Shown one piece after another: positions 52,281 through 60,428 of a stretch of DNA of 64,000 bases. A program made the translations under genes and the position numbers. Within the stretch, counting starts at the first letter, position 1, and every line of letters begins with the position of its first letter. The stretch is from Flavobacteriaceae bacterium EG-1. GTDB lineage: Bacteria > Bacteroidota > Bacteroidia > Flavobacteriales > Flavobacteriaceae. The stretch covers positions 1,740,760 through 1,804,759 of the forward strand of contig NZ_WJPK01000001.1 in the NCBI RefSeq assembly GCF_009649685.1, in the 5' to 3' direction. The notes under the pieces were generated by a model that did no database searches, had not been told where the DNA came from, and worked only from the letters and a program-made list of their open reading frames with translations.

Positions 52281-52727
52281 ATGAATGTTGAGGAAATTTT
52301 ACAAACCGAAAGTCAAATACCCCTAGAAAGCAGAACTATTATTCACTTTTTACTGGTGAACAATAAAATAAATGAATCTATTTCAAATGTTTTAAAACCT
52401 TTTGATATCTCTCCTCAGCAATTTAACGTATTACGAATTTTAAGAGGACAAAATGGAACTCCAGCAAATTTATCTACATTAAATGATCGTATGATAACTA
52501 AAATGAGTAATACCACAAGACTTGTAGATAAATTAATTATTAAGGGTTATGTAGATAGAATTACATGCCCGTCTAATCGCAGAAAAGTTGAGATAAATAT
52601 TACGGAAACAGGTAAAAAGGAGCTAAAAAAAATGGATATTGCCATGAGTAATGCGGAAAAAAAAATTCTTAAAAACTTATCAAAATCAGAATTAAAAGAA
52701 TTGAACAATTTATTCAACAAGTTATAA
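52281..52727 (+). CDS. MarR-family transcriptional regulator
   Basis: 148-residue winged-helix repressor that works as a dimer. The helix-turn-helix runs FNVLRILRGQNGTPANLSTL, then TKMSNTTRLVDKLIIKGYVD (recognition helix), and the wing is CPSNRRKVEINITETG. Palindromic operator candidates lie at its own promoter. Downstream it is followed by a YceI gene after 101 bases, divergent from a rhodanese gene. A common theme is response to redox or organic stress. Confidence 0.93.
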   Translation: MNVEEILQTESQIPLESRTIIHFLLVNNKINESISNVLKPFDISPQQFNVLRILRGQNGTPANLSTLNDRMITKMSNTTRLVDKLIIKGYVDRITCPSNRRKVEINITETGKKELKKMDIAMSNAEKKILKNLSKSELKELNNLFNKL

Positions 52728-52828
52728 TGCCTAAAAATTCGGCACATTAATTGAATTAAATAGAGTAAAATACAACACATTATTAACTAGTTCCAGTAAA
52801 TTCTGGATAAACACAAATTTGAAAAATT

Positions 52829-53407
52829 ATGAAAAAAACAGTATTAAGTTTAGCGTTAGCATTAGTATTCGGAGCAACTGCTACCGCAACAGAACCAATT
52901 GTAAATGAAAAAAAAGAAATTAAACCCGAATCAAGTACAATTAATTGGAAAGCTTACAAAGTTACTGGTGGTCATGAAGGTATGGTTAAGTTAAAATCTG
53001 GATATTTAGAATTTAATGGTAAAAAATTAACTGGTGGCGAGTTTGAGGTTGATATGACAACGCTAGTAGCTACAGATCTCGATGGAGAGATGAAGGGTAA
53101 ATTAGAAGGACATTTAAAGTCTGACGACTTTTTTGGAGTTGAAAATCACAAAACTTCAACCTTAAAAATTACAAGTGTTAAACCATTTAATGATAAATCG
53201 TATACAGCAACTGGAGATTTAACGATAAAAGGTATTACAAAGCCAATAACTTTTGTAATTTCATTATTCGAAAATAAGGCTACTGCAACTTTAAAAGTGG
53301 ATCGTACTAAATATGATATAAAATATAATTCAGGTAATTTCTTTGAAAACCTTGGCGACAAAACAATTTACGACGAATTCGACCTTGTTGTTGATTTAGC
53401 GTATTAA
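52829..53407 (+). CDS. YceI-family periplasmic protein
   Basis: 192 residues with a signal peptide (MKKTVLSLALALVFGATATA). The lipocalin-like YceI fold binds polyisoprenoid-type lipids. Clear motifs are STINWKAYKVTGGHEGMVKL, GGEFEVDMTTLVATD, LKSDDFFGVENHKTSTLKI (in part) and GDLTIKGITKPITF. It is next to a MarR gene, a pair often seen in Bacteroidota. It has its own strong terminator. Confidence 0.93.
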   Translation: MKKTVLSLALALVFGATATATEPIVNEKKEIKPESSTINWKAYKVTGGHEGMVKLKSGYLEFNGKKLTGGEFEVDMTTLVATDLDGEMKGKLEGHLKSDDFFGVENHKTSTLKITSVKPFNDKSYTATGDLTIKGITKPITFVISLFENKATATLKVDRTKYDIKYNSGNFFENLGDKTIYDEFDLVVDLAY

Positions 53408-53429: not shown

Positions 53430-53462
53430 AACCCCGTTTCTTATTTGAAACGGGGTTTTTTA
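53430..53462 (+). terminator. Terminator of the yceI gene
   Basis: AACCCCGTTTC and GAAACGGGGTT make an 11-bp perfect stem with a 6-base loop, followed by TTTTTATTT. It also insulates the trp promoter 11 bases further on. Confidence 0.92.
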
Positions 53463-53472
53463 TTTGAATTAA

Positions 53473-53503
53473 TTTGCAAGTTTAAAAATGATTTCTATAT
53501 TTG
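53473..53503 (+). promoter_or_regulatory. trp operon promoter (TTTG-N19-TATATTTG)
   Basis: A -33 box TTTG (53473-53476), a spacer of exactly 19 bases and a -7 box TATATTTG (53496-53503) fit the Bacteroidota consensus perfectly. Transcription should start near 53509-53511. Confidence 0.85.
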
Positions 53504-53520
53504 AACCAATGAATATTTAC

Positions 53521-53565
53521 ATGACAAAAATATGGTGGTGGTACAACTCTCGAAAAAAATCGTGA
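53521..53565 (+). CDS. trpL: trp leader peptide (MTKIWWWYNSRKKS)
   Basis: A 14-codon frame with three consecutive Trp codons (TGG at 53533-53541) ends in TGA 28 bases before the attenuator hairpin. This is the classical design of a trp attenuator: ribosomes stall at the Trp codons when Trp-tRNA is scarce and so prevent terminator formation. An in-frame ATG 12 bases further up (53509, giving MNIYMTKIWWWYNSRKKS) coincides with the predicted transcription start and would need leaderless initiation. Both starts end at the same stop. Not a gene with a stable product. Confidence 0.88.
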   Translation: MTKIWWWYNSRKKS

Positions 53566-53593
53566 GCTGAGCATTGCTATAGTCAAACTATAT

Positions 53594-53622
53594 AAGGCCT
53601 GTCTTCACGACAGGCCTTTTTT
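53594..53622 (+). terminator. trp attenuator terminator
   Basis: AAGGCCTGTC and GACAGGCCTT form a 10-bp stem with loop TTCAC, followed by TTTTTTAATT. It lies between the Trp-rich leader peptide and trpE. A competing hairpin is possible with TATAGtcaaaCTATA at about 53578-53592, but it overlaps the terminator only slightly; I did not find a strong antiterminator by eye. Confidence 0.88.
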
Positions 53623-53636
53623 AATTAATATGTTTT

Positions 53637-55034
53637 ATGATGTACCCATTAAAGACCACTTATAAAAAAATACTTGCAGACACCATTACACCAGTAAGTG
53701 TTTATCTAAAAATTAGAGACCGTTTTCCAAATAGTATTTTATTGGAAAGTAGTGATTACCATGCAAATGATAATAGCTTTTCGTATATCTGTTGTAATCC
53801 TATTGCATCAATAAAAGTTGAAAATGAAGTTATTATCGAAAATTTTCCTAATGGTAGTTCAAAAGAAACTGAGATTAATGAAAATACAAATGTAGTAGCA
53901 ATAATTGATGGTTTCAGCAATAATTTTACCACCGAAACCAACGATTTTAAATTTATAAATAACGGCCTATTTGGCTACATGGCATACAACGCAGTTCGCT
54001 ATTACGAAGATGTAACCATAGCTAAAAAAGAGAATTCATTAGAAATACCTGATATATACTATGCTGTATATCAAAATATCATTGCAATAAATCATTTTAA
54101 AAATGAAGCTTACATTTTCGCTCATTGTTATAATAAAGAAGCCAACATTGCAGAAATTGAACAAATTTTAAATGTTCGAAATTTTGCTTCCTACAACTTT
54201 TCAATGGAAGGTGGTGTTGTATCAAATTTAAAAGATGAAGAATATAAGGAGCATGTACGTTTAGCCAAGAAACATTGTCAACGCGGCGATGTTTTTCAAC
54301 TTGTACTTTCGCGGAGATTTTCACAGAGTTTTAAGGGCGATGAATTCAATGTATATCGTGCTTTACGATCAGTAAATCCATCACCTTATTTATTTTATTT
54401 TGATTATGGTGATTTTAAAATCTTTGGCAGTTCTCCAGAGGCGCAATTGATAGTAAAAAATGGTTCTGCCGAAATTCATCCTATTGCTGGAACTTTTAAA
54501 AGAACAGGAAACGACGAAAAGGATGCGATATTAGCCAAAGAATTATCAGAAGACGACAAAGAAAATAGCGAGCACGTAATGCTTGTAGACCTAGCTAGAA
54601 ATGACTTAAGTAGAAACGGAAATATGGTAAAAGTTGCTAATTACCGTGAAGTGCAATTTTTCTCACATGTAATTCATTTAGTTTCTAAAGTTGTGGGTCA
54701 AAAGAAAAAAAACATACCTACAATGAAAGTAGTTGCAGACACTTTTCCAGCGGGTACTTTAAGTGGAGCTCCAAAACATATGGCCATGCAGTTAATTGAG
54801 AAATATGAAAAAACCAGTCGTGGATATTATGGAGGTGCTATCGGTTTTATGGACTTTAATGGCAATTTTAATCATGCAATAATGATACGGACTTTTTTAA
54901 GTAAAAATCATCAACTACATTATCAAGCAGGAGCAGGTTTAGTAGCTGCTTCAGACCCAGAAACTGAATTACAGGAGACTTACCATAAATTAGGTGCTCT
55001 AACAAAAGCTATGGAGATTGCTGAAAATATTTAA
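53637..55034 (+). CDS. trpE: Anthranilate synthase component I
   Basis: Cytosolic chorismate-utilising subunit, 465 residues, making anthranilate with TrpG-derived ammonia. The N-terminal LLES motif (ILLESSDY) is the known Trp-binding element for feedback inhibition. The catalytic part shows RRFSQSFKGDEF, FGSSPEAQLIVKNG, HPIAGTFKRTGNDEKDA and AGTLSGAPKHMAMQLI. It is first structural gene behind the attenuator. Confidence 0.96.
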   Translation: MMYPLKTTYKKILADTITPVSVYLKIRDRFPNSILLESSDYHANDNSFSYICCNPIASIKVENEVIIENFPNGSSKETEINENTNVVAIIDGFSNNFTTETNDFKFINNGLFGYMAYNAVRYYEDVTIAKKENSLEIPDIYYAVYQNIIAINHFKNEAYIFAHCYNKEANIAEIEQILNVRNFASYNFSMEGGVVSNLKDEEYKEHVRLAKKHCQRGDVFQLVLSRRFSQSFKGDEFNVYRALRSVNPSPYLFYFDYGDFKIFGSSPEAQLIVKNGSAEIHPIAGTFKRTGNDEKDAILAKELSEDDKENSEHVMLVDLARNDLSRNGNMVKVANYREVQFFSHVIHLVSKVVGQKKKNIPTMKVVADTFPAGTLSGAPKHMAMQLIEKYEKTSRGYYGGAIGFMDFNGNFNHAIMIRTFLSKNHQLHYQAGAGLVAASDPETELQETYHKLGALTKAMEIAENI

Positions 55035-55040
55035 AAGGCC

Positions 55041-55068
55041 GATAATCCTTCTTTCAAGAAGGGGATTA
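55041..55068 (+). repeat. Hairpin in the trpE-trpG gap
   Basis: TAATCCTTCTT pairs with AAGAAGG..GGATTA around a 2-base centre with a 2-base G bulge. It sits in the 45-base gap without a T-run long enough for termination. It may be a stability element or a REP-like remnant. Confidence 0.45.
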
Positions 55069-55079
55069 AAAAAATACAA

Positions 55080-55697
55080 ATGAATAATAAAAATACAGAT
55101 ACTACTAATAATTCTTTGACCACTAAACAAGTTGGGATTAAGGTTTTAGTAATTGATAATTACGATAGTTTCACCTATAATCTCGTACATTACTTAGAAG
55201 ATTTAGGGTGCAGTGTAGTTGTAAAAAGAAACGACCAACTTACTATAAAAGAAGTTGAAGCTTTTAATAAAATAGTTCTATCTCCAGGACCTGGAATTCC
55301 AGAAGAGGCAGGTTTATTAAAAGAAATAATAGCTACATATGCAGCAACCAAGAGCATTTTTGGCGTTTGTTTAGGCCAACAAGCAATTGCCGAAGTATTT
55401 GGAGGTTCTTTAGTGAATTTAGATAAGGTATATCATGGAACAGCAACTAAAATAAAAATTATTAAAGACGACATCCTTTTTAATACCTTACCAAAAGAAA
55501 TTGAAGTCGGCCGTTATCATTCTTGGGTGGTTAGCAAAAATTTGCCGCAAAATTTAATTGCAACTTCAATTGATGAAAATGGTCAAATTATGTCACTTCG
55601 TCATAAAAAATACGATGTAAGTGCAGTGCAATTCCATCCAGAATCAGTTTTAACTCCAAACGGAAAAGTGATTTTAAAAAATTGGTTAGAAAGCTAA
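55080..55697 (+). CDS. trpG: Anthranilate synthase component II (glutamine amidotransferase)
   Basis: 205-residue class I glutamine amidotransferase giving ammonia to TrpE. The catalytic Cys is in FGVCLGQQAIAEVFGG, and the His-Glu pair in VQFHPESVLTPNG. An N-terminal extension of about 20 polar residues precedes VLVIDNYDSFTYNLVHYL. No later ATG precedes the fold, so the ATG at 55080 is taken. It could also support PabB-type folate synthesis, but its place in the operon argues for Trp. Confidence 0.95.
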   Translation: MNNKNTDTTNNSLTTKQVGIKVLVIDNYDSFTYNLVHYLEDLGCSVVVKRNDQLTIKEVEAFNKIVLSPGPGIPEEAGLLKEIIATYAATKSIFGVCLGQQAIAEVFGGSLVNLDKVYHGTATKIKIIKDDILFNTLPKEIEVGRYHSWVVSKNLPQNLIATSIDENGQIMSLRHKKYDVSAVQFHPESVLTPNGKVILKNWLES

Positions 55698-55765
55698 TAC
55701 CAAAAAGCCAAATATAAAAACCTTCAGTTCTCTTAGTACGAAGCACTTAAATTAATAAAACAAAA

Positions 55766-56761
55766 ATGAAAACAACTCTTAATAAGCTCATTAATCATGA
55801 AATTCTAGCAAAAGAAGATGCAAAACAGATTTTGGTAAATATTGCTAAAGGTGATTATAATACGAGTCAAATAGCTGCTTTTTTAACAGTGTATATGATG
55901 CGTAGTATAACAATTGAAGAACTTGAAGGATTTAGAGATGCGCTATTAGAACTTTGTTTAGCCGTAGACTTATCTGAATACAACCCCATAGATTTATGTG
56001 GTACAGGTGGTGATGGAAAAGATACCTTTAACATCTCAACTTTAGCATCGTTTGTAACCGCGGGAGCCGATGTAAAAGTTACAAAACATGGTAATTATGG
56101 TGTATCCTCTAAATGTGGAAGTAGTAATGTAATGGAATTCTTAGGAATTAAATTCAGTAATGAAACTGACTTTTTAAAAAGGTCAATAGACGAGGCAGGA
56201 ATCTGCGTCTTGCATGCTCCCCTATTCCATCCAGCCATGAAAAATGTTGCACCCATACGGCGAGAATTGGGAGTGAAAACGTTCTTTAATATGCTCGGAC
56301 CTATGGTAAATCCCGCATTTCCAAAAAATCAAATGGTTGGCGTATTTAATTTAGAATTGGCTAGAATGTATGGTTATCTTTATCAAAATACAGATAAAAA
56401 TTTTACCGTTTTACATGCCCTCGATGGTTATGATGAAATTTCGCTAACTGGAAATACAAAAACCATTTCTAACAATACTGAAAGTATGCTTAAACCTGAA
56501 GATTTTGGTGTCAAAAAAATATTGCAATCAGAAATTATTGGTGGTGAAGATATAGCAGAATCTGCTCAGATTTTTATGAATGTATTACAAGGCAAAGGAA
56601 GTATAGCACAAAACAACGTAGTTTGTGCCAACGCGGGCATCGCTATAGCCACGGTTAAAAATTTAAATCCGAAAGAAGGTTTTGAGCAAGCAAAAGAATC
56701 ATTACTTAACGGAAGTGGCTTAAAAGCCCTAAGAAAATTACAAGAATTAAGTGCAAATTAA
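55766..56761 (+). CDS. trpD: Anthranilate phosphoribosyltransferase
   Basis: 331-residue enzyme joining anthranilate and PRPP. The PRPP-binding glycine loop GTGGDGKDTFNIST is at 79-92, and KHGNYGVSSKCGSSNVMEFLG (in part) and the anthranilate-binding region RRELGVKTFFNMLGPMVNP are typical. It lies 68 bases after trpG. Confidence 0.96.
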   Translation: MKTTLNKLINHEILAKEDAKQILVNIAKGDYNTSQIAAFLTVYMMRSITIEELEGFRDALLELCLAVDLSEYNPIDLCGTGGDGKDTFNISTLASFVTAGADVKVTKHGNYGVSSKCGSSNVMEFLGIKFSNETDFLKRSIDEAGICVLHAPLFHPAMKNVAPIRRELGVKTFFNMLGPMVNPAFPKNQMVGVFNLELARMYGYLYQNTDKNFTVLHALDGYDEISLTGNTKTISNNTESMLKPEDFGVKKILQSEIIGGEDIAESAQIFMNVLQGKGSIAQNNVVCANAGIAIATVKNLNPKEGFEQAKESLLNGSGLKALRKLQELSAN

Positions 56762-56764
56762 AAG

Positions 56765-57547
56765 ATGAACATACTTGATAGAATAGTAAGCGATAAAAGA
56801 AAAGAGGTAAGCTTAAAAAAATCGGTGATATCCATTTCTCAGTTTGAGCAATCAGAACTGTTTAATCGCGGAAATAATTCGTTAGCAGAAGCACTTCGAA
56901 ACAGCAATACGGGTATAATTGCTGAACATAAAAGACGTTCTCCTTCAAAGTCTACCATTAACCAAAACACAAATGTAGGTCAAGTAGCAAAGGAATATGA
57001 AAATGCTGGAGTTTGTGGTATGAGCGTGCTTACAGATATAAAATATTTTGGCGGCTCATTAGAAGATTTGATTTTGGCACGAGCTTGTGTTCGGATGCCT
57101 CTGTTGCGTAAGGAGTTCATAATTGATGAATATCAAATCATTGAAGCTAAAGCACATGGTGCAGATGTAATTTTATTAATAGCAGCAATCTTATCATCTG
57201 AAGAAATAAAAAGGTATTCAGAATTAGCTAAATCTTTGAATCTAGATGTACTCTTAGAAGTACATAATGAAAAGGAATTACATAAATCTCTTATGCCTAG
57301 TATAGATATGTTAGGTGTTAACAATAGAAATTTAAAAACCTTTGATGTTGATTTAAAAACTAGCAAAGATCTATCTAAATTAATACCCGACGAATTTGTA
57401 AAAGTATCAGAAAGTGGTATTAGTTCAATCGAGGCAATCCAAGATTTAAAACAGTTTGGATATCAGGGTTTTTTAATTGGTGAAAACTTTATGAAAACCG
57501 ATAACCCGGGCAAAAGTGCAACAGCATTTATTAAAAAATTAAATTAA
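56765..57547 (+). CDS. trpC: Indole-3-glycerol phosphate synthase
   Basis: 260-residue TIM-barrel enzyme. IIAEHKRRSPSKSTIN holds the catalytic Lys; LLRKEFIIDEYQIIEAKAHGAD and the Asn/Glu of GVNNRNLKTF and VSESGISS complete the active site. It begins 3 bases after trpD. It is a single-domain TrpC, not a TrpC-TrpF fusion. Confidence 0.96.
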   Translation: MNILDRIVSDKRKEVSLKKSVISISQFEQSELFNRGNNSLAEALRNSNTGIIAEHKRRSPSKSTINQNTNVGQVAKEYENAGVCGMSVLTDIKYFGGSLEDLILARACVRMPLLRKEFIIDEYQIIEAKAHGADVILLIAAILSSEEIKRYSELAKSLNLDVLLEVHNEKELHKSLMPSIDMLGVNNRNLKTFDVDLKTSKDLSKLIPDEFVKVSESGISSIEAIQDLKQFGYQGFLIGENFMKTDNPGKSATAFIKKLN

Positions 57548-57590
57548 TTTTTTGGACTATCACTATTCAAATACCAAAAATCAACCCATC

Positions 57591-58250
57591 ATGAAACCCA
57601 AATCATTTAAATTAAAAGTTTGTGGTATGAATAAAAACACAATAGATGTGGGTTTATTAAAGCCAGACTTTTTGGGTTTTATATTTTGGAAACCATCTAA
57701 AAGATATTTCGATGGTGAGATGCCCAATTTACCACATAGTATAAAAAAAGTTGGAGTTTTTGTAGATGCAAGTATTGCCGAAATAAAAGCATTAACTAAA
57801 CAATACGGACTTCTTTATACTCAGTTACATGGTAATGAAAGTCCCGCATTTTGTGATGAATTAAAAAAGCAAATACCTCAAATAAAAATTATAAAAGTAT
57901 TTTCTATTAAAGATAGTTTCGATTTTAAGCAATTAAGGCAATTTGAAGATGTTTGCGACTATTATTTATTTGATACAAAAGGCAAGTTACCCGGAGGTAA
58001 TGGATATTCCTTTGATTGGAAATTATTAAAAAAATATCCCTCAACCAAACCATTTTTTCTAAGTGGGGGAATTGGGTTAGAAGAATTAGATTCTATACTT
58101 GAATTTGCAAAAAAACCTGAATCAAAATATTGTTTTGCAATTGACGTGAACAGTAAGTTCGAAGATGAACCTGGTTTAAAAAATATAGAAAAATTGAATG
58201 AATTTAAAAAATTGCTAACAGACAACAGTCAACTAAAAACTGACAATTAA
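57591..58250 (+). CDS. trpF: Phosphoribosylanthranilate isomerase
   Basis: 219-residue TIM-barrel isomerase. The catalytic Cys is in LKVCGMNK and the catalytic Asp in DYYLFDTKGKLPGGNG. SGGIGLEELDSIL is the phosphate-binding end. I use the ATG at 57591 (MKPKSFKLKVCGM); a TTG 39 bases upstream gives a longer but less typical N-terminus. The stop is followed directly by the trpB start. Confidence 0.94.
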   Translation: MKPKSFKLKVCGMNKNTIDVGLLKPDFLGFIFWKPSKRYFDGEMPNLPHSIKKVGVFVDASIAEIKALTKQYGLLYTQLHGNESPAFCDELKKQIPQIKIIKVFSIKDSFDFKQLRQFEDVCDYYLFDTKGKLPGGNGYSFDWKLLKKYPSTKPFFLSGGIGLEELDSILEFAKKPESKYCFAIDVNSKFEDEPGLKNIEKLNEFKKLLTDNSQLKTDN

Positions 58251-59435
58251 ATGAGTTATCAAGCAGATGAAAAAGGATATTATGGTGAATTTGGAGGAGC
58301 ATTTATTCCTGAAATGCTTTATCCAAATTGCGAAGAGTTAAGGCAAAATTATATTCGGATAATGCAGGAAGAATCCTTTAAACAAGAATTTGACCAATTA
58401 TTAAAGGATTATGTAGGCCGCCCTACTCCATTATATTTTGCCGAACGTCTTTCAAAAAAATACAACACCAAAATTTATCTCAAAAGGGAAGATTTATGTC
58501 ATACAGGAGCACATAAAGTAAATAATACTATTGGGCAGATTTTGATGGCAAAAAAATTAGGCAAAAACAGAATTATTGCTGAAACGGGTGCTGGCCAACA
58601 TGGTGTAGCAACTGCAACAGTTTGTGCCTTAATGGGTATAGAATGTGTAGTTTATATGGGTGAGATAGATATAGCCCGACAAGCACCAAATGTAGCACGT
58701 ATGAAAATGCTAGGTGCAGAAGTTCGTCCAGCACTTTCTGGTAGTCGCACATTAAAAGACGCTACAAATGAAGCTATACGCGATTGGATAAACAACCCTG
58801 TAGACACGCATTACATAATTGGATCGGTAGTTGGCCCACACCCCTACCCAGATATGGTAGCGCGTTTTCAATCCGTTATTTCTGAGGAAATAAAATGGCA
58901 ATTAAAAGAAAAAGAGGGACGTGAAAAACCCGATTTTGTTATAGCTTGTGTTGGTGGCGGAAGTAATGCTGCAGGTGCATATTATCATTTCTTAGATGAA
59001 ACCGAAGTTGGGATTATAGCCGTTGAAGCTGCCGGACATGGTATAGATTCAGGAGAGAGTGCTGCAACCTCAGCATTGGGTAAAATAGGAATTATTCATG
59101 GTAGTAAAACCCTATTAATGCAAACTCCAGATGGTCAAATAACAGAACCATATTCAATCTCAGCCGGATTAGACTACCCAGGAGTAGGCCCTATGCATGC
59201 AAATCTATTCGCAACTGGAAGAGGTGAATTTATTTCAATTACAGATGATGATGCAATGAAAGCTGGTCTAATGTTATCTAAGTTAGAGGGTATTATTCCA
59301 GCAATTGAATCATCACATGCATTTGCGATTTTTGAAGATAGAAAATTCAAAGAAAATGATATAGTTGTGGTGAATTTATCTGGTCGAGGAGATAAGGATT
59401 TAAACACCTTTATTGATTATTTTAAGTTAGCATAA
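58251..59435 (+). CDS. trpB: Tryptophan synthase beta chain
   Basis: 394-residue PLP enzyme joining indole and serine. Lys89 of HTGAHKVNN binds PLP. The phosphate loop [13 protein letters not shown] and the catalytic Glu in [15 protein letters not shown]-like [15 protein letters not shown] are intact. It begins directly at the trpF stop and pairs with trpA two bases after its end, which suits the alpha2beta2 complex. Confidence 0.98.
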
Positions 59436-59437
59436 TT

Positions 59438-60202
59438 ATGAATAATAGAATTACAAACAAGCTTCAAGAAGACAAAAAACTTCTTTCCATATATTTTACA
59501 GCAGGTTATCCAGCATTAAACAACACCGTTACAATAATACAAGAATTAGAAAAAAACGGAGTTGACATGATAGAAATCGGATTACCATTTAGTGACCCCC
59601 TTGCAGACGGCCCTACCATTCAATCTAGTTCTACAACTGCACTTAAGAACGGTATGACTACAGAAGTGCTTTTTAAGCAACTAGCTGACATTAGAAAAAG
59701 TGTTTCTATTCCTTTGATTATAATGGGGTACTTTAATCCAATGATGCAATATGGTATTGAAAATTTCTGTAAAAAATGTAAAGAAATTGGAATTGATGGT
59801 TTAATAATCCCTGATTTACCAGTAGATGTTTACCAGGAAAAATATCGTAAAACATTTGAAAAAAACAATTTAAAAAATGTGTTCTTGATTACACCCCAAA
59901 CTTCAGAGGATCGTATTCAATTTATAGATTCTGTTTCAGATGGATTTATTTATATGGTGAGTTCGGCAAGTGTAACAGGTTCGAAATCAGGATTTGGTGA
60001 TGAACAAACAGATTATTTTGAACGCATTGCTGCAATGAATTTGAATAATCCGCTTATCGTTGGTTTTGGAATTAAAGATTCAGAAACTTTTCAGCAAGCT
60101 ACTAAAAGCACAAAAGGAGCAATAATCGGATCAGCATTTATAAAGCACCTCACAAAAAAAGGAATCAATTCAGTCGCTGAATTTACTACCACTATCCGCT
60201 AA
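59438..60202 (+). CDS. trpA: Tryptophan synthase alpha chain
   Basis: 254-residue TIM-barrel lyase splitting indole-3-glycerol phosphate. Catalytic Glu46 (MIEIGLPFSDP) and Asp57 (LADGPTIQ) are present, as is the phosphate-binding VGFGIKDSETF. Start 2 bases after trpB. The channel interface loop with TrpB (PLADGPTIQSSS) is normal. Confidence 0.97.
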   Translation: MNNRITNKLQEDKKLLSIYFTAGYPALNNTVTIIQELEKNGVDMIEIGLPFSDPLADGPTIQSSSTTALKNGMTTEVLFKQLADIRKSVSIPLIIMGYFNPMMQYGIENFCKKCKEIGIDGLIIPDLPVDVYQEKYRKTFEKNNLKNVFLITPQTSEDRIQFIDSVSDGFIYMVSSASVTGSKSGFGDEQTDYFERIAAMNLNNPLIVGFGIKDSETFQQATKSTKGAIIGSAFIKHLTKKGINSVAEFTTTIR

Positions 60203-60203
60203 C

Positions 60204-60428
60204 ATGTCCAGCATAATAAATAATTGGAAAATAATTTTGCCATTATGCCTCACATTAGGCTTGGCACCATTTATTCCGGAGCCTCATTTATGGGGTAAAT
60301 TAAAATGGGTATTCGGTGGTGCCATAGGTATGAATTTTCAAGATTGGTTTGATATTGTTTTACATGGATTTCCTTTTGTCTTATTACTTCGTTTGTTAAT
60401 CTTAAAATCAAAAAAAAACATAAAGTAG
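60204..60428 (+). CDS. Small membrane protein at the end of the trp operon
   Basis: 74 residues starting one base after the trpA stop. It has two hydrophobic segments (about 8-24 and 51-67) around a polar loop, LWGKLKWVFGGAIGMNFQDW. The very tight spacing argues for cotranslation with trpA. I recall similar short proteins in Bacteroidota, but know no function; a role in Trp uptake or envelope biology is speculation. No clear terminator follows. Confidence 0.82.
   Translation: MSSIINNWKIILPLCLTLGLAPFIPEPHLWGKLKWVFGGAIGMNFQDWFDIVLHGFPFVLLLRLLILKSKKNIK

Follow-up and report, generated by a model that had tools for sequence, protein, structure and literature searches.

The trp operon of Flavobacteriaceae bacterium EG-1 is preceded, at 53473–53640 of the window (the whole 64,000-nucleotide stretch of DNA that was analyzed), by a short reading frame with three tandem Trp codons and an intrinsic terminator. 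The locus raises the question of which RNA strand opposes the terminator and how a translating ribosome would govern that choice. In the E. coli trp leader (trpL), tandem Trp codons lie ahead of an intrinsic terminator that precedes trpE, the position of the ribosome selects between mutually exclusive RNA pairings, and the antiterminator pairs with the 5′ arm of the terminator. A preliminary description of the window proposed a similar logic here, and the promoter, Trp-codon reading frame, 10-bp terminator, and trpE that it listed are all present in the sequence, in that order and place. Neither the element nor its gene context is new, nor is the idea of attenuation. What is put forward as new, from comparison and folding, is a switch geometry that would differ from the E. 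coli type. The features of the locus are as follows.

53473–53476, plus strand: −33 element TTTG, separated by N19 from the −7 box (sequence)
53496–53503, plus strand: −7 element TATATTTG (sequence; consensus as given in the accessible part of PMC6847099)
53508–53509, plus strand: predicted transcription start, 4–5 nt past the G of the −7 box
53509–53565, plus strand: leader ORF of 18 codons, MNIYMTKIWWWYNSRKKS and stop, with its first in-frame ATG at 53509 and a second, internal one at 53521
53533–53541, plus strand: three tandem Trp codons, TGG TGG TGG (sequence)
53547–53553, plus strand: E1, CUCUCGA, a proposed anti-antiterminator segment in the ORF that resembles E3 (folds, shuffles)
53560–53566, plus strand: E2, UCGUGAG, the putative switching strand, made up of the last codon, the stop codon, and the next base (comparison)
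53563–53565, plus strand: leader stop codon TGA (sequence)
53578–53592, plus strand: central antiterminator hairpin UAUAGU CAA ACUAUA (predicted fold, window only)
53594–53618, plus strand: intrinsic terminator of 10 bp with the 5-nt loop UUCAC (terminator scan, alignment)
53604–53610, plus strand: E3, UUCACGA, the putative partner of E2, which combines the loop of the terminator with the two leading bases of its 3′ arm (comparison, folds)
53617–53622, plus strand: terminator U-run (sequence)
53637–55034, plus strand: trpE, first gene of trpE-G-D-C-F-B-A (ORF, NCBIfam)
53637–60202, plus strand: ORFs of trpE, G, D, C, F, B, and A (ORFs, NCBIfam)

A stretch of 1.2 kb contains three terminator-like sites, whereas shuffled sequence gives 0.2 on average; the other two are the terminator of the upstream gene and the same hairpin read on the opposite strand. 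The RNA from 53509 to 53660 folds with −40.7 kcal/mol (z = −4.42), and none of 200 shuffles was equally stable. The Trp triplet was rejected as evidence by itself, as TGGTGGTGG occurs seven times in the window against 0.12 expected. The weight rests on the combination of the leader parts and on their conservation.

Gene context and family of the leader

The start of trpE lies 18 nt past the terminator. NCBIfam models for trpG, trpD, trpC, trpB, and trpA score above their cut-offs, while the best models for trpE (431 bits, cut-off 518) and trpF (132 bits, cut-off 216) match strongly, below theirs. The genome is 4.45 Mb in size, and in the nearest named relative found, Aurantibacter crassamenti, trpE is 92% identical. 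Immediately 5′ of the trp region, at 52281–53407, are two genes with weak NCBIfam matches, one for a MarR-like regulator and one YceI-like; the match of the YceI-like gene falls below the cut-off, and this gene has its own terminator at 53430–53457. YceI-like C-termini are also seen by eye upstream of the leader at L007, L017, and L024. On the other side, a 74-aa ORF directly follows trpA (60204–60428); it appears membrane-like by eye, and no NCBIfam model matched it at E 0.001.

The Rfam family RF01692 (Bacteroid-trp) matches 53489–53603 with 50.4 bits (cut-off 49). Members of this family carry a short, stop-terminated ORF in which two or more Trp codons occur, as is the case in the window, and the match lies upstream of a tryptophan biosynthesis gene, the first of a run of seven trp genes. 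The window shares with the model its place before trp genes, the short tandem-Trp ORF, the leader hairpin, which is only partly kept (several pairs are marked non-standard), and the terminator 5′ arm at the model end. The model stops at this arm, however, and its structure line leaves out the terminator as well as E2:E3, so that E2:E3, the mimicry of E3 by E1, and the start-codon spacing go beyond it.

The family originates from Weinberg et al. 2010 (PMC2864571), the accessible part of which names it once in the main text, in a table. According to the portions consulted of two later reports, the element was noted in F. psychrophilum, ahead of its trp operon, and likened to E. coli attenuation (PMC6414381), and “strong clues” of leader-peptide attenuation were reported before amino-acid operons of that species (PMC9723704). 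A description of the antiterminator of Bacteroid-trp was not found in the literature searched; it may be drawn in the supplements of PMC2864571 and PMC9723704, as the other features beyond the model may be in that of PMC2864571. The family, which the Rfam release used holds without terminator or antiterminator, would now gain a concrete switch whose strands are named and show compensatory changes in nature.

Of 60 family genomes sampled, one per genus, 54 have a trpE match at E < 1e-140, and a WW or WWW leader lies upstream of trpE in 53 of these (51 by script, L026 and L049 by eye); the sole exception is L177/G035. The element is therefore ordinary for Flavobacteriaceae, and a lack of conservation of the Trp codons in relatives, which the preliminary description had named as a finding that would speak against its proposal, is not observed. 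RF01692 reaches its cut-off in 37 of the 60 family genomes with filters that lose weak matches, and in 38 of 395 phylum genomes with stricter filters that likewise lose them.

The comparison draws on 187 loci, reduced to 160 unique leaders by counting 17 identical duplicates once and by 10 loci that the script did not pick. The Trp run has three codons in 151 of the 160 and two in the remaining 9. Outside the 160, leaders were recognized by reading at L026, L049, L079, L120, L135, and L168; L131 has a WWW leader whose terminator region reads as N, and no leader was found at L124 and L125, where the contig begins near trpE. Two wider probes were set aside. The pattern CGTGA-N20-50-TCACGACAAGCC is too strict for the phylum (16 of 395 genomes), misses the window, and matches G259, G302, and G446 without trp-leader context. 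A purpose-built model of 98 positions, R1, gave matches in 31 of 119 genomes of the order, a count that was rejected because three weaker matches (L210, L212, and L214) are plain terminators.

Promoter spacing and the start codon

A TAnnTTTG box with an in-frame leader start 3′ of it is present in 153 of the 160 unique leaders. In 137 of these 153, codon 9 is the first to encode Trp, a distance that stays constant despite varying promoter spacing, and an ATG stands exactly 8 codons ahead of the first Trp in 140 of the 160. The gap from the G of the box to the start codon has two peaks, at 4–7 nt (57/153) and at 16–19 nt (59/153); in the window, ATG 53509 lies 5 nt past the −7 box. The spacing rule behind the predicted transcription start comes from the accessible parts of two reports, in which the box G lies at −5 in F. 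johnsoniae and boxes 4 or 5 nt from a start site count as probable promoters (PMC6847099), and in which the box spans −12 to −5 (PMC9723704). Given the gap of 5, the mRNA 5′ end is therefore predicted at, or one base before, ATG 53509, so that the mRNA would have almost no 5′ leader.

The preliminary description had allowed translation to start at either 53509 or 53521 and had counted 14 codons. The leader start codon is probably 53509, which fits the promoter-to-ATG spacing in relatives and is favored over 53521 because the codon spacing to the first Trp is conserved; the count of 14 is correct for the ORF from the second ATG, while conservation favors the ORF of 18 codons. A peptide from 53521 (MTKIWWW..., 14 codons) is unlikely, even though this ATG is in frame and the 5′ leader of about 13 nt would come closer to the median of 24 nt given for F. 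psychrophilum in the accessible part of PMC9723704. An ATG in the same place, 4 codons ahead of the first Trp, recurs in 10 of the 160 leaders, namely the window, L051, and eight outside the window's genus, including Flavobacterium L155, L160, and L161. However, all ten also have the outer ATG, the inner one alone occurs in none, and L052, the third genome of the genus, has the outer ATG only.

No purine-rich stretch of the Shine–Dalgarno type precedes ATG 53509 or ATG 53521, which together with the probable near-leaderless start sets this leader apart from that of E. coli. Enrichment of TAnnTTTG-N5-ATG as a sign of widespread leaderless starts was absent from the window's own genome (95 occurrences vs 111 of the reversed pattern) and was dropped. 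Since, in addition, leaderless mRNAs make up 5.5% in F. psychrophilum (PMC9723704, as far as accessible), the arrangement looks clade-specific to this leader and not like a habit of the genome. The leader thereby bears on the coupling to transcription of ribosomes that start without Shine–Dalgarno pairing, a coupling that would have to be close enough for attenuation.

Pairing of E2 with the terminator loop

The antiterminator was not obvious to the preliminary description, which suspected that the mechanism differs from that of E. coli in detail. The comparison is in line with this suspicion and makes a probable strand identifiable. With the relatives set side by side, most of the leaders listed have UCGUGA 3′ of the Trp run, and their terminator loop contains UCACGA. 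E2:E3 forms at least 6 continuous bp in 151 of the 160 unique leaders, compared with a mean of 13.2 and a maximum of 18 over 20 rounds with composition-shuffled middle regions. E2 starts 16–22 nt past the Trp run in 149 of the 151, and CGUGA starts at codon position 2, 3, or 1 in 114, 24, and 1 of 139 rows, respectively. Its occurrence in several reading frames suggests that the RNA rather than the peptide is conserved.

Leaders that depart from the consensus provide a more stringent comparison. In the 24 such leaders, the summed score of each E2 with its own E3 is 347.6, against 285.7 ± 12.0 when the E3s are exchanged, and none of 2000 exchanges scored as high. In 18 of the 24, the consensus E3 would pair less well than the leader's own, whereas in six (L012, L034, L042, L164, L165, and L166) the own E3 has no such advantage. 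Compensated E2/E3 pairs include UCGCAAU/AUUGCGA (L043), UCGCGA/UCGCGA (L046), GGAUUCAG/CUGAAUCC (L048), and GCGAG/CUCGC (L174). E2:E3 also fits at L053 and L163, outside Flavobacteriaceae, while L042, L165, and L166 are exceptions with just 3 bp.

An alignment of trpE leaders, a kind of check that had been suggested, was made with MAFFT from 72 of the 160 leaders, less than 85% alike. Double-sided changes occur at 6 of 8 E2:E3 pairs, with 23 double-changed cells against 5.4 in shuffles (0/500), and 83.4% of the cells are paired against 18.8–50.4% in slid registers. In a few rows (L050, L173–L176) MAFFT misplaces E2, which biases the result against E2:E3 pairing. The terminator stem is paired in 99.4% of cells, with double-sided changes at 10 of 10 pairs; part of the E2:E3 covariation is shared with this stem because the last two bases of E3 pair there too. 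What sequence comparison shows is conservation of the Trp codons and of their placement, the presence of the terminator, and covariation in E2:E3.

Among loci outside the 160, GUCGUGAG:CUUACGAC at L079 was equaled by 0 of 200 shuffles, as were the pairings at L026, L120, and L135; GUCGUAG:CUGCGAC (L207) was equaled by 2, CCGUGA:UCACGG (L208) by 9, and the weak pairing at L168 by 15 of 200. At L049, E2:E3 is no better than in shuffles (69/200).

Folding with and without a ribosome footprint on the Trp codons, another of the suggested checks, gives a three-state result in the model. The ribosome was represented by a mask of assumed size, from −14 to +15 of the P-site. An RNA polymerase protects some 14 RNA bases, which places the end of the exposed RNA at about 53610 when the polymerase is at the U-run. 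For window RNA exposed to 53610, E2:E3 reaches 0.82–0.84 with the ribosome stalled at any of the three Trp codons and at most 0.01 without a ribosome or with the ribosome at the stop codon. When 53614 is instead the last exposed base, E2:E3 depends on which Trp codon occupies the A site, with 0.01 for the first, 0.44 for the second, and 0.72 for the third, such that in the model the third alone gives a clear E2:E3. With RNA exposed to 53618, E2:E3 is 0.00 and the terminator forms in every state. Because the terminator wins in all full-length states, antitermination would have to be kinetic, with E2 taking the loop before the stem closes.

In the modeled stalled state, 70 of the 72 non-redundant leaders pair E2:E3 (12–24 in shuffles), and 52 of the 72 show the full three-state switch (5–16 in shuffles; 10 rounds with dinucleotide-shuffled middles). 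In the 157 of 160 leaders with at least 5 pairs, E2:E3 exceeds 0.5 in 154 when stalled, in 47 without a ribosome, and in none at the stop codon; from the 47, the model predicts read-through in about three in ten leaders if translation fails to start. E2:E3 does not form in the stalled model at L058 and L164. The pairing E1:E2 reaches 0.83–0.84 in window folds without a ribosome and lies above shuffles (11.9 vs 8.6). On the alignment it is paired in 56.3% of cells against 55.8% in the slid control, and the protector E1 is the weakest part of the model because the alignment does not single out the E1:E2 register.

A model of the switch and other leaders

Comparison and folding together make a ribosome-mediated transcription attenuator of the Bacteroid-trp family with an E2:E3 three-state switch the best explanation of the locus, with a probability of roughly 0.78, and the attenuation proposed earlier is retained in this form. 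Transcription would begin at about 53508, and a ribosome would initiate on the nearly leaderless AUG at 53509. When charged tRNA-Trp is available, the ribosome is predicted to reach the stop codon and cover E2, allowing the terminator to form and transcription to end before trpE. In the second predicted state, with no ribosome present, E1 and the Trp-codon region would hold E2, and the terminator would again form. When Trp-tRNA is short, a ribosome presumably stalls on the Trp codons, E1:E2 is broken, and E2 is free; as the terminator loop emerges from the polymerase, E2 may then pair with E3 before the hairpin closes, resulting in read-through into trpE.

As in E. coli, tandem Trp codons, exclusive pairings decided by the ribosome, and an intrinsic terminator before trpE would act together, and a mutually exclusive antiterminator freed by a stall on the Trp codons is indicated by comparison and folding. 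The predicted differences are that the antiterminator of the window is directed chiefly at the loop of the terminator and the upper end of its 3′ arm, and less at the 5′ arm, and that the proposed protector is a short segment 6–12 nt past the Trp codons.

The evidence leans toward a wider proposal, namely that in Flavobacteriaceae and some other Bacteroidota the antiterminator works by loop capture, E2 seizing the loop of the terminator, together with the initial bases of its 3′ arm, while these emerge from the polymerase. The choice would be purely kinetic and decided at the U-run, the clade of the window would combine it with an almost leaderless leader peptide, and the genome's own his and phe leaders would keep the classical 5′-arm topology. 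If loop capture holds, antitermination need not compete for the 5′ arm and can act last, on the loop.

Two other leaders of the same genome bear on this topology. Before hisG, L188:1195–1306 encodes the His leader peptide MRNINTHHHFYDCAQAR, ended by a stop codon, ahead of a terminator, and is probably a his attenuator. Before pheA (L189, minus strand), the Phe leader peptide MNTQFFFNGFFFYFFFKRGAGLL, likewise ended by a stop codon, has nine Phe codons, and a terminator lies at 2097–2073. Both resemble the trp leader in their tandem His or Phe codons, their terminator, and an upstream strand able to pair with it. In the his leader this strand pairs over 8 bp, CTCAAGCG:CGTTTGAG, with the 5′ arm and loop of the terminator, and in the phe leader over 8 bp with the 5′ arm, with at most 5 bp in either to the loop and 3′ arm. 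The trp leader, in contrast, has 7 bp to the loop and 3′ arm and 5 bp to the 5′ arm and loop. The his and phe leaders thus follow the classical 5′-arm topology, whereas the trp leader is directed to the loop and 3′ arm. By eye, the trp leaders at L164, from the same order, with a weak E2:E3 match of 6 bp, and at L165 and L166, from the same class, seem to be of the 5′-arm type.

The same attenuator could operate differently, with E2:E3 serving as a loop contact (a pseudoknot) that aids termination or pausing and with antitermination achieved by an imperfect pairing of 53566–53576 to the terminator 5′ arm. A 5-bp contact with a closed hairpin is thinkable, E3 being mostly loop, and the predicted antiterminator engages the 5′ arm as well (53597–53599 paired at 0.67–0.96). 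The 5′ arm is, moreover, the pairing partner in this genome's his and phe leaders and apparently in L164–L166. This arrangement is nonetheless improbable, given that the trp leader offers no more than 4 continuous bp to the 5′ arm alone, whereas E2:E3 has 7 bp. All 7 bp of E2:E3 beside the full stem would be sterically unlikely because no linker to the 3′ arm would be left, and, as modeled for the window, E2 becomes available to E3 solely when the ribosome is stalled. Control of the terminator by something other than a ribosome (a T-box, a TRAP-like protein, or a riboswitch), with incidental Trp codons, is very improbable, as RF01692 is the sole cis-regulatory Rfam family to reach its cut-off in the window and the Trp codons are conserved together with their distances to the start codon and to E2.

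Before ilvD (L190 and L191), no Ile/Val/Leu leader peptide was recognized in the stretch read. Two serial trp leaders precede trpE at L209:100–360 and at L213 (minus strand), in two genomes of one genus from another family of the order; they lie 136 and 151 nt apart, start to start, and each comprises a WWW ORF and a terminator. E2:E3 is no better than in shuffles in the first leaders (83/200 at L209, 59/200 at L213), and in the second leaders it was equaled by 1 of 200 shuffles for UGCGGGA at L209 and by 0 of 200 for UGUGGG:CCCACA at L213.
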